From: Bacillota bacterium
GTDB taxonomy: Bacteria > Bacillota > Halanaerobiia > B1SED10-174
DNA length: 43,133 nt
Direction of reading: 5' to 3'
Assembly (NCBI GenBank): GCA_007122335.1
Contig: SKTZ01000041.1
Span: 1 to 43,133, forward strand
Positions 9,371 to 42,390 of the stretch are shown piece by piece; positions within the stretch are counted from its first letter, which is position 1; each line of letters starts with the position of its first letter. The position numbers and the translations under genes are program-made. The notes under the pieces are model-generated. The model searched no databases. It was not told where the DNA came from and saw only the letters and a list, made by a program, of their open reading frames with translations.

Positions 9371-10925
9371 TGCGGGTTCAAAAAGTCCTGGAGAAGATGA
9401 GTTTAGAAGAAAAAGCAGGGCAGCTTTTCCAGGTGGGTTTTTCGGGAAAGGAACCCACTCCCTAGATTGAAAGTATGATTCTGGAATATAATGTTGGGGG
9501 AGTTATTCTTTTCAGCCGCAATATAAAAGAGCCTGAACAACTTGCTGCCCTGACCCGAAGCTTACAAAAACCTGCAGATCAACCCCTCCTTATTTCCACG
9601 GACCAGGAAGGAGGCCTGGTAAACCGCATCCAGGGACTAACTCATTTCCCCTCAAATATGGTCCTGGGGGCCGGTGGAGATGCGAACCTGGCCCGACTCC
9701 AGGGCCAGGCAATGGGCCGGGAACTCAGGGTCTGCGGGATAAATATGAACCTGGCCCCGGTCCTGGATCTGAATAATAACCAGGCCAATCCGGTAATTGG
9801 AGTTCGATCCTATGGAGAAGATCCGGAGCTTGCGCTCGCCTGGGCTGTGCTGTTATTGCCGGCCTGCAGGAAGAAGGGGTACCCGCCTGCGGTAAGCATT
9901 TCCCCGGACACGGAGACACGGATATTGATTCCCATCTGGCTCTCCCCGTTATAGAGCATGAGCTTGAAAGGCTGGAAAGGATAGAATTTTTCCCTTTCCG
10001 CAGGGCAATTGCCGCAGGCCTGGAGAGTATCATGACTGCCCACATATTTTTTCCGGCTATCGCAGAAAAAGAAGACCTTCCCGCAACCCTTTCCTGGCAT
10101 GTTCTGACGGGGCTTCTCCGGGAAGAAATGGGTTTTACCGGTTTAATTATTACTGATTGCATGGAAATGAAAGCCATAGTAGACAATTTTGGAACAACCC
10201 GGGGTCCAGTTCAGGCCATCGCAGCAGGGGCAGATATGTTGTTGATTTCTCACGATTACAAATTACAGGTTGCTGCTATCAGGGTTGTTATTGAAGCTGT
10301 GAGAGCAGGCATTATCAACGAGGAAAGGATTAATTCTGCCGTGGGGAGAATTTTATCCCTGAAGAAAAAGATCACCCCAGGAAATGGTATTAAAAAACAT
10401 AACCCCGGAGCAGGTGGGGAAATTGCCCGAGAAATTGCAGCCCGGGGAATAACTGTGGTGGAAGACCCCAATCACCTCATTCCTTTCTCGCGAGAAAAAC
10501 TTGTTATTATGGAATATCTCCCTTCTCCCGGGGATAAGCGAGATTCAAAACAAACACCTGCTGAAAAAATGGCGGCTACCCTGGGAGAATATAAATTTTC
10601 GATTTTTTTGCAGTCCATTTCCTCTGCAGAAGACATCAAGGAATTTTCTGGAGCTGAGCAGGTTCTTTTCTGCAGTTACAGCGCCTGGAAGGATCCTGCT
10701 CAGATAAATTTAATCCAAATAATTGCCTGGAAAAACCCGAATTTTGCCGTAGCAGCATTTTCAAGCTCTTATGATGCCAGGATAATTCCCTCGGGCAACA
10801 GTTTTATCACGTCCTTTGATACCTCGCCCTACAGTTTGCAAGCTCTGGCCGAAGTTTTAGCCGGGAGATTAAATGCCGCCGGCCGACTTCTCATTAAATA
10901 CAGAAAGGGTGGGAAAAATTCATGA
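9370..10925 (+). pseudogene. nagZ: Beta-N-acetylhexosaminidase NagZ (GH3), in-frame TAG and one frameshift
   Basis: GH3 enzyme expected to remove GlcNAc from GlcNAc-MurNAc or GlcNAc-anhydroMurNAc fragments. ATG 9370 overlaps the namZ stop (TAATG). The frame reads KVLEKMSLEEKAGQLFQVGF, meets TAG at 9463-9465, then continues in the same frame with [13 protein letters not shown] and [12 protein letters not shown]. Near 9838-9841 one base is missing; the frame moves by -1 and continues with [14 protein letters not shown] (acid/base dyad region) and GLIITDCMEMKAI (nucleophile Asp). About 518 residues when restored. It ends at TGA 10923-10925, overlapping anmK. No signal peptide. With both a stop and a frameshift the gene is either decaying or locally mis-sequenced. 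Confidence 0.85.
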
Positions 10926-39492: not shown

Positions 39493-39526
39493 AAGGATAA
39501 TAGCAGTATTAACAGGGGGAATGGAC

Positions 39527-39928
39527 ATGCACGCCAATCCTTATCAAAAATATAAAAAGAACCAGGTTGAAATGGCTTCGCCTGCTGAACTAACTTTACT
39601 TTGTTTCAAGGGTTCAATTAAGAATCTAAAACAGCTCGTTGATAACTGGGAAGAGAAAAAACCAGAGGAAATCCACGAAAAACTTTTAAAAGTTCAGGCC
39701 ATCCTGGAAGAATTAATTTTTGGACTCAACGAACAGGCTGGTGAAGTGGTGAATCACCTGGCCAGTCTCTATGATTACATGCAGAGGAGACTCGTGGAAG
39801 CAAATGTGAAAAAAGATCCTGAGATAATTAAGGAAGTCCTGGATATGTTCGAGGAGCTCAAAGATACCTGGGAAGAGGCCATGGTCAACCAGGTTCCTGC
39901 TGCAGCCTCTTCAGCAAGGGAAGGGTGA
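39527..39928 (+). CDS. fliS: Flagellin export chaperone FliS
   Basis: Cytoplasmic chaperone for flagellin, 133 residues. Family features are NPYQKYKKNQVEMASPAELTL written around the N-terminus (residues 3-23), LCFKGSIKNLKQL, and the helix LYDYMQRRLVEANVKKDPE. ATG 39527 is preferred over ATG 39521, which touches the AGGGGGA ribosome-binding site. The C-terminus overlaps the next start by four bases. Confidence 0.95.
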   Translation: MHANPYQKYKKNQVEMASPAELTLLCFKGSIKNLKQLVDNWEEKKPEEIHEKLLKVQAILEELIFGLNEQAGEVVNHLASLYDYMQRRLVEANVKKDPEIIKEVLDMFEELKDTWEEAMVNQVPAAASSAREG

Positions 39929-40287
39929 ATAAACAAGTGACTGCTTTGTTAAAACTTTATCAAAAACTTTTCGATTTAACCCGCCAGGAACACGAGGTAA
40001 TCCAGGAAAACAGATTTGAAAAACTAGGGGAAATTTTGCAGGACAAACAGGAAACCATTTATTTAATTAACCGCCATCCCGAAGCTAAAAAGGGCCCAGA
40101 AAAAGAGAAAATTTTGCAAATAATGACTGAAATTAAAAAGCTTGGAGATAGCAACCTTGAAGTTTTACAGGAAGAGATAAAAGTTACAGGGGGAAAACTT
40201 GAAAAATTAAATTTAGGCTGGCAGAATTTGCAAAACTACAGCAATTCTTCCCAGGGGCAGCCATCGATAATAGACCGCAGAGGATAA
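39925..40287 (+). CDS. FliT-like flagellar protein
   Basis: A 120-residue, helical, charged protein in the position of fliT. The N-terminal part (LLKLYQKLFDLTRQEHEVIQ) and the segment after it resemble FliT/FlgN-like chaperones, but similarity is weak. It overlaps fliS by four bases (GTG 39925), suggesting coupled translation. Likely binds FliD or another late export substrate; the assignment rests mainly on position. Confidence 0.72.
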   Translation: MNKQVTALLKLYQKLFDLTRQEHEVIQENRFEKLGEILQDKQETIYLINRHPEAKKGPEKEKILQIMTEIKKLGDSNLEVLQEEIKVTGGKLEKLNLGWQNLQNYSNSSQGQPSIIDRRG

Positions 40288-40307: not shown

Positions 40308-40541
40308 ATGAAGGAAATAACTTTAATCCAGAAAGAAATAATCCGGTTGCTACAGAAAAAGGGAGCAACTTACGCTCATCCCCTGAAATCAAAAGACCTG
40401 GGGGCGAAGTTAAATGTAACCCCCTCCTATATAAGAGAACAGGCCAAGGTTCTGGAAAAAAAAGGAGTTATCGCCGTCCGAAGAGGTCCAGGAGGCGGGT
40501 ATTTTTTCCTGTCCGAGGATTATAAAGACCTGAGCCTTTAA
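40308..40541 (+). CDS. Small winged-helix DNA-binding protein
   Basis: A 77-residue protein with a helix-turn-helix (KSKDLGAKLNVTPSYIREQA) and a wing of the Rrf2 type (GVIAVRRGPGGGYFFLSE). It lacks the cysteine region of full-length Rrf2 regulators, so no cluster-binding role is suggested. Start ATG 40308. It ends at a strong terminator. A same-strand frame overlapping it (40289-40525) is a shadow. It could regulate the flagellar genes or the genes downstream; no target is visible. Confidence 0.78.
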   Translation: MKEITLIQKEIIRLLQKKGATYAHPLKSKDLGAKLNVTPSYIREQAKVLEKKGVIAVRRGPGGGYFFLSEDYKDLSL

Positions 40542-40575
40542 AAAAGGATCGGCTAACCAGTAGTCGGTCCTTTTT
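40541..40575 (+). terminator. Terminator of the flagellar cluster
   Basis: AAAAAGGATCG (40541-40551) pairs with CGGTCCTTTTT (40565-40575) over a 13-base loop: a strong hairpin with built-in A/T tracts, starting at the winged-helix stop codon. It may terminate in both directions. Confidence 0.9.
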
Positions 40576-40602
40576 AAAATAGTTCCGGTGGGAGGGAGCA
40601 AG

Positions 40603-42390
40603 GTGGAAAAACAACAACTAAAAGCAAGAGCATCAGGAATTAAAAAAGAATTAAAGGAATTAATCCAACAGGGAAAAAACACGGAAGCCCTGCAGTTATT
40701 TAATAAAAATATTGACCTGCTTCAGGTCGATATCGAAATGTTTTCGATTGCTGCCGTGATTTTTATTTCCCAGATGAAGCTTGAAGAAGCCACCGAAGTG
40801 ATTTTAAGTGGACTTAAACTTGACCCTGAAAACTTTGATCTCCTGTTTAATTTGGGATATGTTCATGAGTTGAAAGGAGAGCTCTTCCACGCCTGGAACC
40901 TGTTTCGCCAGGCCGAATACTCAGCAGGAACAGCCAGCCAGAAAAGAGACCTGGAGATAGTAATTGGTGAACTTAACAAGAAATTCAGCTATGGAACTGT
41001 ATTTGAAGAGGATAAATTTTTGATTGAAATTATTGGCGGGAAACAACGCTTTCCCCTGGCCTATAAGCTTGATCATCTCCGGGAAAGAAAAAAAATTCTG
41101 GATGTAATAATGGAAAATATTCTGGAAGGTGTTAACTCTATAGTGGAAATTGAATATGGTCCCGGGATTATTTCCAGGACCCTGGCCCGTTGTGGATTTT
41201 ACGTGCAAAGCTTTGACTCTAAAACCCTGAATTTCCTTGGAGCTTTGGGACTGGAAATGGGGGAAAAACTCCGCCAGAGGGACAGGCTTGACCTGCATCC
41301 GTTTACAAAATTTGAAATTAACGGAGGAAATGCGGACAAATTAAACCCCGTAGATATGGTTTTGCTGCTTCCGGAAACCTTTAAGTGGTATAAAAATAAG
41401 GGATCAAAGAATTCCCTGAAAATCATAAAAATACTTGCCACTAAAGCAAAAAAGCAAATTTTCATCAACCTGCCACTTTCTTCCGAGGATGATAAAGAAT
41501 TATTCAAAAAGCTCAAAATAGAGATAAAAAATCTGCTCCAGGAAATGGGCTGGAAAGAAAATGGTGTGGGGAGAGATTTGGGAGAAAATCAAATATTTAA
41601 CTTTGGTAAGGTTTCTTTGAATCGGGTCCAACCAGAAACCCTTATCCCCAGGGGACTTGATGTTATTTATTCCCAATCTGAACTCTTGCAGATACCGCTG
41701 AAAAAATGCGTTGATATAAATGGGTTTACTTTTGCTCCCGGGGACTGGCAACCCTTCGCGGCAACAATTCGTGAACACCTGGAGGACCCTGAATTAGAAT
41801 ATCAGGGTTCCATCCTGGAAAAATTTTTTCAAAAATTTGCACCCAAAAACAGGCAGGAACAGTGGGCTCCACACCTCGACCAGGAAATTTATCCCGCAAA
41901 TAAGGGCTGGGTGGGTTTGCCCTGGATAAGGGTCCTGGAAAAAACAACTTCAATAGCCAAGAAATTTGAAACTGAGTTGACCCGAAACCGCGGGGGAAAT
42001 CAACATTTTGGTCCCAACAGCCAGAAATTCGGTCAGGAAGAAATTGGGCGGATAATTAAAGCATATCAGCATATGGAAAAGGGGTACCAGCCCGAATTAT
42101 TCCCAGATGGATATATTAATGGCTACTTCTTGAAAAAAGATTATGACTACCGCTTGATTGTTACCGAGGGGCAACACCGTGCTGCAGCTTTAAGTGTTTT
42201 AGGGTATAAAGAGATTACAGCTAAACTAAGTTCTGACAGCAGGCATATGAAGGTAGTAGACTACAATAACGTAGAATTCTGGCCCGGGGTTAAAAGCGGT
42301 TTATTTTCTCCGGAAGATGCAAAAACCTTGTTTAATGTTTTCTTTTATGCTGACGGTTGCTGGAAAGCTGAATATTTGGGAATCATATAA
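40603..42390 (+). CDS. Uncharacterised TPR protein with methyltransferase-like and ParB-like segments
   Basis: A protein of 595 residues that I do not recognise as a named family. The N-terminal part (about 14-125) is a TPR-like helical repeat, including DPENFDLLFNLGYVHELKGE. The middle (about 165-330) contains SIVEIEYGPGIISRTLARCG (179-198), followed by an acidic residue in QSFDSK, which looks like motif I of a class I SAM methyltransferase but with a degenerate glycine loop. The C-terminal part (about 470-560) contains VTEGQHRAAALSVLGYKEI (520-538), as in ParB-like domains. It lacks a signal peptide or membrane helix. Start GTG 40603 with GGGAGGGA upstream. It directly follows the flagellar cluster, so a role in flagellin or envelope-glycan modification is possible but unproven. 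The next gene repeats its TPR part. Confidence 0.72.
   Translation: MEKQQLKARASGIKKELKELIQQGKNTEALQLFNKNIDLLQVDIEMFSIAAVIFISQMKLEEATEVILSGLKLDPENFDLLFNLGYVHELKGELFHAWNLFRQAEYSAGTASQKRDLEIVIGELNKKFSYGTVFEEDKFLIEIIGGKQRFPLAYKLDHLRERKKILDVIMENILEGVNSIVEIEYGPGIISRTLARCGFYVQSFDSKTLNFLGALGLEMGEKLRQRDRLDLHPFTKFEINGGNADKLNPVDMVLLLPETFKWYKNKGSKNSLKIIKILATKAKKQIFINLPLSSEDDKELFKKLKIEIKNLLQEMGWKENGVGRDLGENQIFNFGKVSLNRVQPETLIPRGLDVIYSQSELLQIPLKKCVDINGFTFAPGDWQPFAATIREHLEDPELEYQGSILEKFFQKFAPKNRQEQWAPHLDQEIYPANKGWVGLPWIRVLEKTTSIAKKFETELTRNRGGNQHFGPNSQKFGQEEIGRIIKAYQHMEKGYQPELFPDGYINGYFLKKDYDYRLIVTEGQHRAAALSVLGYKEITAKLSSDSRHMKVVDYNNVEFWPGVKSGLFSPEDAKTLFNVFFYADGCWKAEYLGII

Follow-up and report, generated by a model that had tools for sequence, protein, structure and literature searches.

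The gene and its flagellin cluster

Toward the 3′ end of the window, by which we mean the whole 43,133-nucleotide stretch of DNA that was analyzed, an open reading frame (ORF) for a 595-amino acid protein lies downstream of fliS. The features of the locus, including the parts of the encoded protein, are as follows.

39521-39928, + strand: fliS (context)
39925-40287, + strand: fliT/flgN-like chaperone gene (context)
40308-40541, + strand: 77-amino acid winged-helix ORF between fliT and the 595-amino acid ORF, Rrf2-like (E 1.4e-6), kept in four species
40544-40577, + strand: hairpin and T-run directly 5′ of the ribosome-binding site of the ORF, found in four species with wobble-compatible changes; terminator or attenuator
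40603-42390, + strand: the ORF, a 595-amino acid TPR/methyltransferase-like/SerK-ParB-like protein; GTG start, ribosome-binding site GGGAGGGAGC
40660-40977, + strand: TPR module (residues ~20-125), of the same TPR type as the glycosyltransferase (GT)/methyltransferase fusions of flagellar clusters in the class
40978-41637, + strand: middle domain (residues ~126-345), class I SAM-methyltransferase-like fold
41143-41178, + strand: degenerate motif I, VEIEYGPGIISR (residues 181-192), with the first glycine replaced by E184 and the two later glycines retained
41650-42387, + strand: C-terminal family domain (residues ~350-595), ParB/sulfiredoxin (Srx) fold of SerK/SbnI type
42166-42192, + strand: predicted phosphate-binding box EGQHRAAAL (Box II/GxHR; residues 522-530, with Arg526)
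42527/42530-42934, + strand: stand-alone TPR paralogue of the N-terminal module, 134-135 amino acids
43007-43036, + strand: intrinsic terminator 3′ of the TPR paralogue

The ORF is a genuine gene under purifying selection. Orthologues with 70-83% identity were found in three congeners, and the gene is present in four of the five genomes of the genus, the window genome counted; in an order-level comparison covering five other genomes besides that of the window, it was absent from one congener (94% complete; fliS was not found there either) and from the sister genus. Measured against the closest congener, dN/dS was 0.145 for the whole ORF and 0.106, 0.231, and 0.104 for the TPR, middle, and C-terminal parts, respectively, with the middle domain the least constrained; the lowest stretches were motif I (0.086) and the ParB-like core (0.042). 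The ORF is also rare, occurring in few further lineages among several hundred genomes searched: when genome contigs were scanned with the full-length protein, a single close relative turned up, and searches of 399 and 376 genomes of the phylum added just two carriers of homologues, G147 and G113.

TPR_11 was matched above the Pfam cut-off at residues 54-92, and besides the TPR no Pfam or NCBIfam family reached its cut-off in the ORF. A preliminary description of this DNA had proposed a TPR module, two short motifs, and an adjoining paralogue of the TPR part; the module was confirmed by the Pfam match, both motifs are present, and the paralogue is 49% identical to the TPR part of the ORF. The same description had placed the gene behind the late flagellar genes. 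The order fliD-fliS-fliT-small winged-helix gene-ORF is shared by the window and three congeners, and the TPR paralogue comes after the ORF wherever the contig is long enough. In two congeners another flagellin gene lies directly beyond the paralogue, a position before which the window contig stops, and the ORF is therefore located inside a flagellin cluster; the flagellar neighborhood stands, but the gene is not merely behind it. In the genus, the ORF has no visible glycosyltransferase neighbor, a point against a role in flagellin modification. The winged-helix ORF is a possible local regulator, and the hairpin and T-run suggest control of the ORF by read-through or attenuation.

Several other features were observed in passing. 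One congener carries four tandem flagellin genes (L013:436-4262), and contigs L012 and L014, as well as the window, break in or beside flagellin genes 3′ of the ORF, hiding the downstream content. The window also holds other envelope-glycan genes at 26.6-30 kb and a NagZ-like β-N-acetylhexosaminidase (region 9475-10925) whose frame is split (9475-9954 and 10032-10925) by a frameshift or an assembly error.

The fliS-side slot in related genomes and the TPR module

In a survey of fliS neighborhoods, the Maf flagellin glycosyltransferase (PF20157/PF01973) was located within ~2 kb of fliS in ~10 genomes of the class, and several of the class Maf genes are followed by LegB, LegC, or NeuB/PseI-type genes (legionaminic-type sugar). 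In two class genomes, TPR-GT-methyltransferase fusions lie near fliS in place of Maf. The MptE-like profile scored above cut-off in 19 of 59 class genomes; MptE-like/Maf was found in none of the five genomes of the window genus by a search that was positive in four control genomes, and the ORF itself lacks the Maf_flag10_N and MptE-like domains. Mutual exclusion of Maf and the ORF in the class (0/6 against 19/53) is suggestive only. With Maf absent from the genus and the ORF at Maf's fliS-side slot, the ORF holds a flagellin-modification position in a lineage without the usual enzyme. Maf, with its helper GlfM, occupies the corresponding neighborhood in class relatives and docks flagellin via TPRs or a partner protein (PMC13317340), but bears no sequence relation to the ORF.

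The large fusion of G040 (L071:5787-9176), which joins GT2, TPR, and Methyltransf_23 in a flagellar cluster, resembles the ORF in its TPR type, in having the TPR before the methyltransferase, and in lying beside fliS; it differs in its GT2 and intact methyltransferase domains and in the lack of a SerK-like domain. A TPR/GT1-methyltransferase gene and sulfotransferase genes were also seen in the flagellar cluster of a class member (L072:126-5352).

The TPR profile of the ORF matched the TPRs of two flagellar-cluster fusions of the class at E 8.5e-20 and 2.5e-32. Caulobacter FlmG binds flagellin by its TPR domain (PMC7591256) and Maf-1 employs C-terminal TPRs (PMC13317340), which makes flagellin docking the natural reading of the TPRs of the ORF. 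FlmG (596 amino acids) is similar in length and likewise has an N-terminal TPR before its modifying domain (PMC7591256), but that domain is a GT-B, whereas the ORF has no glycosyltransferase match. By analogy with these systems, the N-terminal TPRs would dock flagellin ahead of export. The free-standing paralogue probably docks flagellin too, and may be a docking helper with a role comparable to that of GlfM of Maf-2 (PMC13317340).

Homologues and their settings

Homologues of the C-terminal part, at ~23-37% identity, were found in G031, G032, G147, G113, and Acetoanaerobium, and three fusion forms were seen. The window genus combines TPR, methyltransferase-like, and SerK-like parts; G147 has the methyltransferase-like and SerK-like parts, as probably does Acetoanaerobium with a decayed middle; and G113 joins TPR and SerK-like parts to ATPgrasp_ST ("sugar-transfer associated ATP-grasp," E 1.9e-36), with no methyltransferase part. 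The G147 gene is located among flagellin and fliD genes next to a Maf-like gene (Maf_flag10_N, E 1.3e-9), and that of G113 among fliW, fliD, and flagellin. The stand-alone homologues of G031 and G032 lie in O-antigen/LPS clusters, between O-antigen ligase, WaaP/Kdo-type kinase, and GT2 genes, and the Acetoanaerobium homologue has no evident glycan or flagellar setting; the C-terminal domain is thus not specific to flagella.

The two stand-alone homologues, together with the envelope-glycan genes within the window, would fit an enzyme that modifies surface glycans (LPS/O-antigen) in general and lies in the flagellin cluster by chance. This we regard as very unlikely, given that the fused forms of two other lineages also lie in flagellin clusters, that the TPR type is common to flagellar-cluster fusions, and that the position is that of Maf.

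Two further observations were made on these contigs. In one LPS cluster, the gene next to the stand-alone C-terminal homologue (L011:6344-7165) also encodes a ParB/Srx-type box (GGNHRLAIAKILNIEKLPVIV), and surface-glycan clusters may often hold ParB-fold proteins. The PLSDB entry for a 2.63-Mb Acetoanaerobium "plasmid" (L019, NZ_CP154629.1) carries housekeeping genes and is probably a mislabeled chromosome.

The middle methyltransferase-like domain

The window ORF itself gave no Pfam methyltransferase match; the G147 homologue matched Methyltransf_31 (E 3.3e-4, domain alone) and UbiG (E 4e-4). A five-sequence profile of the middle domain matched four PDB chains, all of them SAM methyltransferases (E 0.18-0.94), and its comparison with a methyltransferase profile gave P 0.0016 (ParB control, P 0.39), with a score equalled by none of 150 column shuffles. 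An AlphaFold2 model from two input sequences (window and L003) reached a pLDDT of 46; Foldseek with this poor model ranked methyltransferases first, but at E 8e-3 and TM 0.28, which lends weak support to a methyltransferase fold.

In motif I of the window (EIEYGPG), two of the three glycines of G-x-G-x-G are retained, as is the acidic residue after strand 2 (D205), and the first glycine is E in all four congeners. The motif runs from LEVKCGEG in G147 through VEIEYGPG in the window genus to GYLENTDG in Acetoanaerobium, where it is lost. With E for the first glycine here and a more worn motif in Acetoanaerobium, a live methyltransferase is doubtful in the window genus, and on these residues catalysis by the middle domain appears doubtful despite the strongly conserved motif-I stretch.

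A live methyltransferase would methylate flagellin or a glycan substituent in spite of the altered motif I, with the C-terminal domain merely in support. Flagellin-glycan methyltransferases are common (CD0243/PA1088, PMC10714395 and PMC11833859; SfmD, PMC3765264), the G147 motif is near normal in a protein that matches methyltransferase families, and the motif-I stretch is highly conserved within the genus. The lost glycine, the missing Acetoanaerobium motif, the low constraint on the middle domain (dN/dS 0.231), and the flagellar homologue of G113 that does without a methyltransferase part all speak against it, and we judge it quite unlikely. The middle domain would then probably serve substrate binding or structure in this genus, where methylation would have been lost; it may persist in some relatives.

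The C-terminal SerK/SbnI-like domain

Pfam ParB matched none of eight members of the C-terminal family, which leaves the family unclassified. The only two PDB matches of its profile were SbnI (PDB 5uje, a free-serine kinase, E 0.19), whose alignment falls exactly on the strand-GxHR-helix core, and 3wyi (undecaprenyl pyrophosphate synthase, E 0.08), which was dropped as a diffuse match with no motif in common. SerK (NF053625), an ADP-dependent free-serine kinase, was among the NCBIfam matches of two members, at E 0.0044 (top match) and 0.06, below its cut-off (16.2 against 380 bits). Taken singly, these sequence links to SerK and SbnI (E 0.004-0.2) are weak. Comparison by hhalign of the C-terminal family with a ParB profile built on phage ParBs gave P 1.1e-5 over the core (methyltransferase control, P 0.15), and the score of 40.7 was reached by none of 150 column shuffles (maximum, 22.3). 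That profile includes G389 (L022), an ordinary phage-type ParB that was rejected as a family member and used for the profile only.

The conserved core, a GxHR/GxxR phosphate box, a helix, and an L-G-x-x-x-I strand, was recovered in the family alignment, the SbnI alignment, and the hhalign comparison. SerK and SbnI share the strand, GxHR box, helix, and LGxxxI strand with the C-terminal family and are, as judged by sequence, its nearest named relatives; the ORF differs from them in its TPR and methyltransferase-like fusion and in ~140 extra residues before the core, to which the similarity is confined. The AlphaFold2 model of the C-terminal domain (pLDDT 36; input, window and L003 only) gave a Foldseek list that is meaningless, and matches to Spuma_A9PTase, DUF4377, and Kelch were set aside as scattered and below cut-off.

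The arginine of the GQHR box is retained in the window. In other ParB-fold proteins, loss of that arginine abolishes nucleotide binding (PMC12704722). The C-terminal domain would use its GQHR box to bind a nucleoside di- or triphosphate and, by analogy with SerK and SbnI, would most likely phosphorylate a small hydroxyl-bearing acceptor. The acceptor may be an amino acid or a sugar substituent, bound for flagellin or already on it. Against this reading, archaeal SerK did not phosphorylate threonine or peptides (PMC5120207), a SerK-like protein bound CTP (PMC12704722), and the G113 homologue lacks the box arginine (GHHF).

Canonical features of ParB partition were looked for, and neither a helix-turn-helix (HTH) in the ORF nor a parA-like gene among the neighbors was found. 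The proximity of the C-terminal end to SerK/SbnI suggests phosphotransfer or NTP binding and not DNA work. A DNA-directed ParB/methyltransferase of mobile-element origin, acting in partition, defense, or DNA modification and unrelated to flagella, could draw on the enrichment of ParB-methyltransferase fusions in prophages (PMC12704722). It is hardly credible here: tblastn gave no phage match, scanning viral contigs with the C-terminal profile yielded no relative, the ORF has no DNA-binding HTH, linkage to flagellar genes is conserved, and homologues lie in glycan clusters.

The domain could also work as an NTP-dependent scaffold or switch. In that case the ParB-like domain would bind ATP or CTP and change shape without transferring anything and, together with a dead methyltransferase, would form a chaperone-like checkpoint on the modification or export of flagellin. 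NTP switching is frequent among ParB-fold proteins and ATP is bound by bacterial fusions with a SAM methyltransferase (PMC12704722), motif I of the middle domain is degenerate, and the adjoining TPR paralogue and fliS/fliT neighborhood fit a chaperone circuit. The nearest relatives of the C-terminal domain, SerK and SbnI, are enzymes, however, and the homologues lie in glycan clusters, one of them fused to the sugar-transfer-associated ATP-grasp; we consider a switch somewhat unlikely.

A probable flagellin-modification factor of new make-up

The reading that we prefer, at a probability of about one-half, is that the ORF encodes a cytoplasmic flagellin-modification protein that combines TPR docking of flagellin, a SerK-like NTP-binding (phosphotransfer) domain, and a methyltransferase fold. 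We infer both flagellin as the client or substrate and the phosphotransfer (kinase) chemistry. The ORF is probably a flagellin-modification factor of new make-up, because it lies in a flagellin cluster where relatives keep flagellin-decorating enzymes. Between the modification and scaffolding roles that the preliminary description had left side by side, modification is strengthened by the synteny of Maf with nonulosonic-acid genes, or of TPR-GT-methyltransferase fusions, beside fliS. Its three-part domain reading holds in outline, with the "ParB-like" end now placed closest to SerK/SbnI and a live methyltransferase in doubt.

That description had also called the combination unfamiliar and perhaps of a new kind. 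Fusions of a methyltransferase fold and a ParB fold in a single chain were already published in 2025, with ATP binding shown for some (PMC12704722), so the kind itself is not new; unlike the ORF, those fusions have no reported TPR and occur in phage-enriched, DNA-modification-type settings, with flagella not mentioned. The parts of the ORF belong to known kinds; judged by the available literature, what is new is their combination, the presence of a TPR, and the flagellar location. A search for literature on ParB together with flagellin glycosylation found nothing.

A possible chemical counterpart is the N-methyl-phosphothreonine ornament on C. difficile flagellin (PMC10714395), which has a dimethyl form in P. 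aeruginosa (PMC11833859). The C. difficile type A/P. aeruginosa b-type pathway needs a phosphate-transferring enzyme and a threonine-directed methyltransferase (PMC10714395, PMC11833859), but CD0240/0242/0244-type genes were not seen beside the ORF, archaeal SerK takes neither threonine nor peptides (PMC5120207), and a link by analogy to this pathway is attractive but unproved. The C. difficile paper named the origin of the phospho-amino acid in phospho-linked flagellin ornaments as its most challenging prediction (PMC10714395). The SerK-like domain, the methyltransferase fold, and probable flagellin docking provide testable candidate chemistry for such ornaments.

More specifically, the ORF could be a TPR-docked kinase of the ParB/sulfiredoxin fold that either phosphorylates flagellin or assembles on it an ornament of phospho-amino-acid or phospho-sugar type, a version we hold only tentatively and think rather unlikely. 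If true, this kinase fold would be serving surface-protein modification for the first time, and a single protein would stand in for the Maf system. The ParB fold, whose versatility as an NTP module was demonstrated recently, would also gain a place in the biology of flagella and the cell surface, and the finding points to an unclassified domain family common to flagellin and O-antigen clusters.
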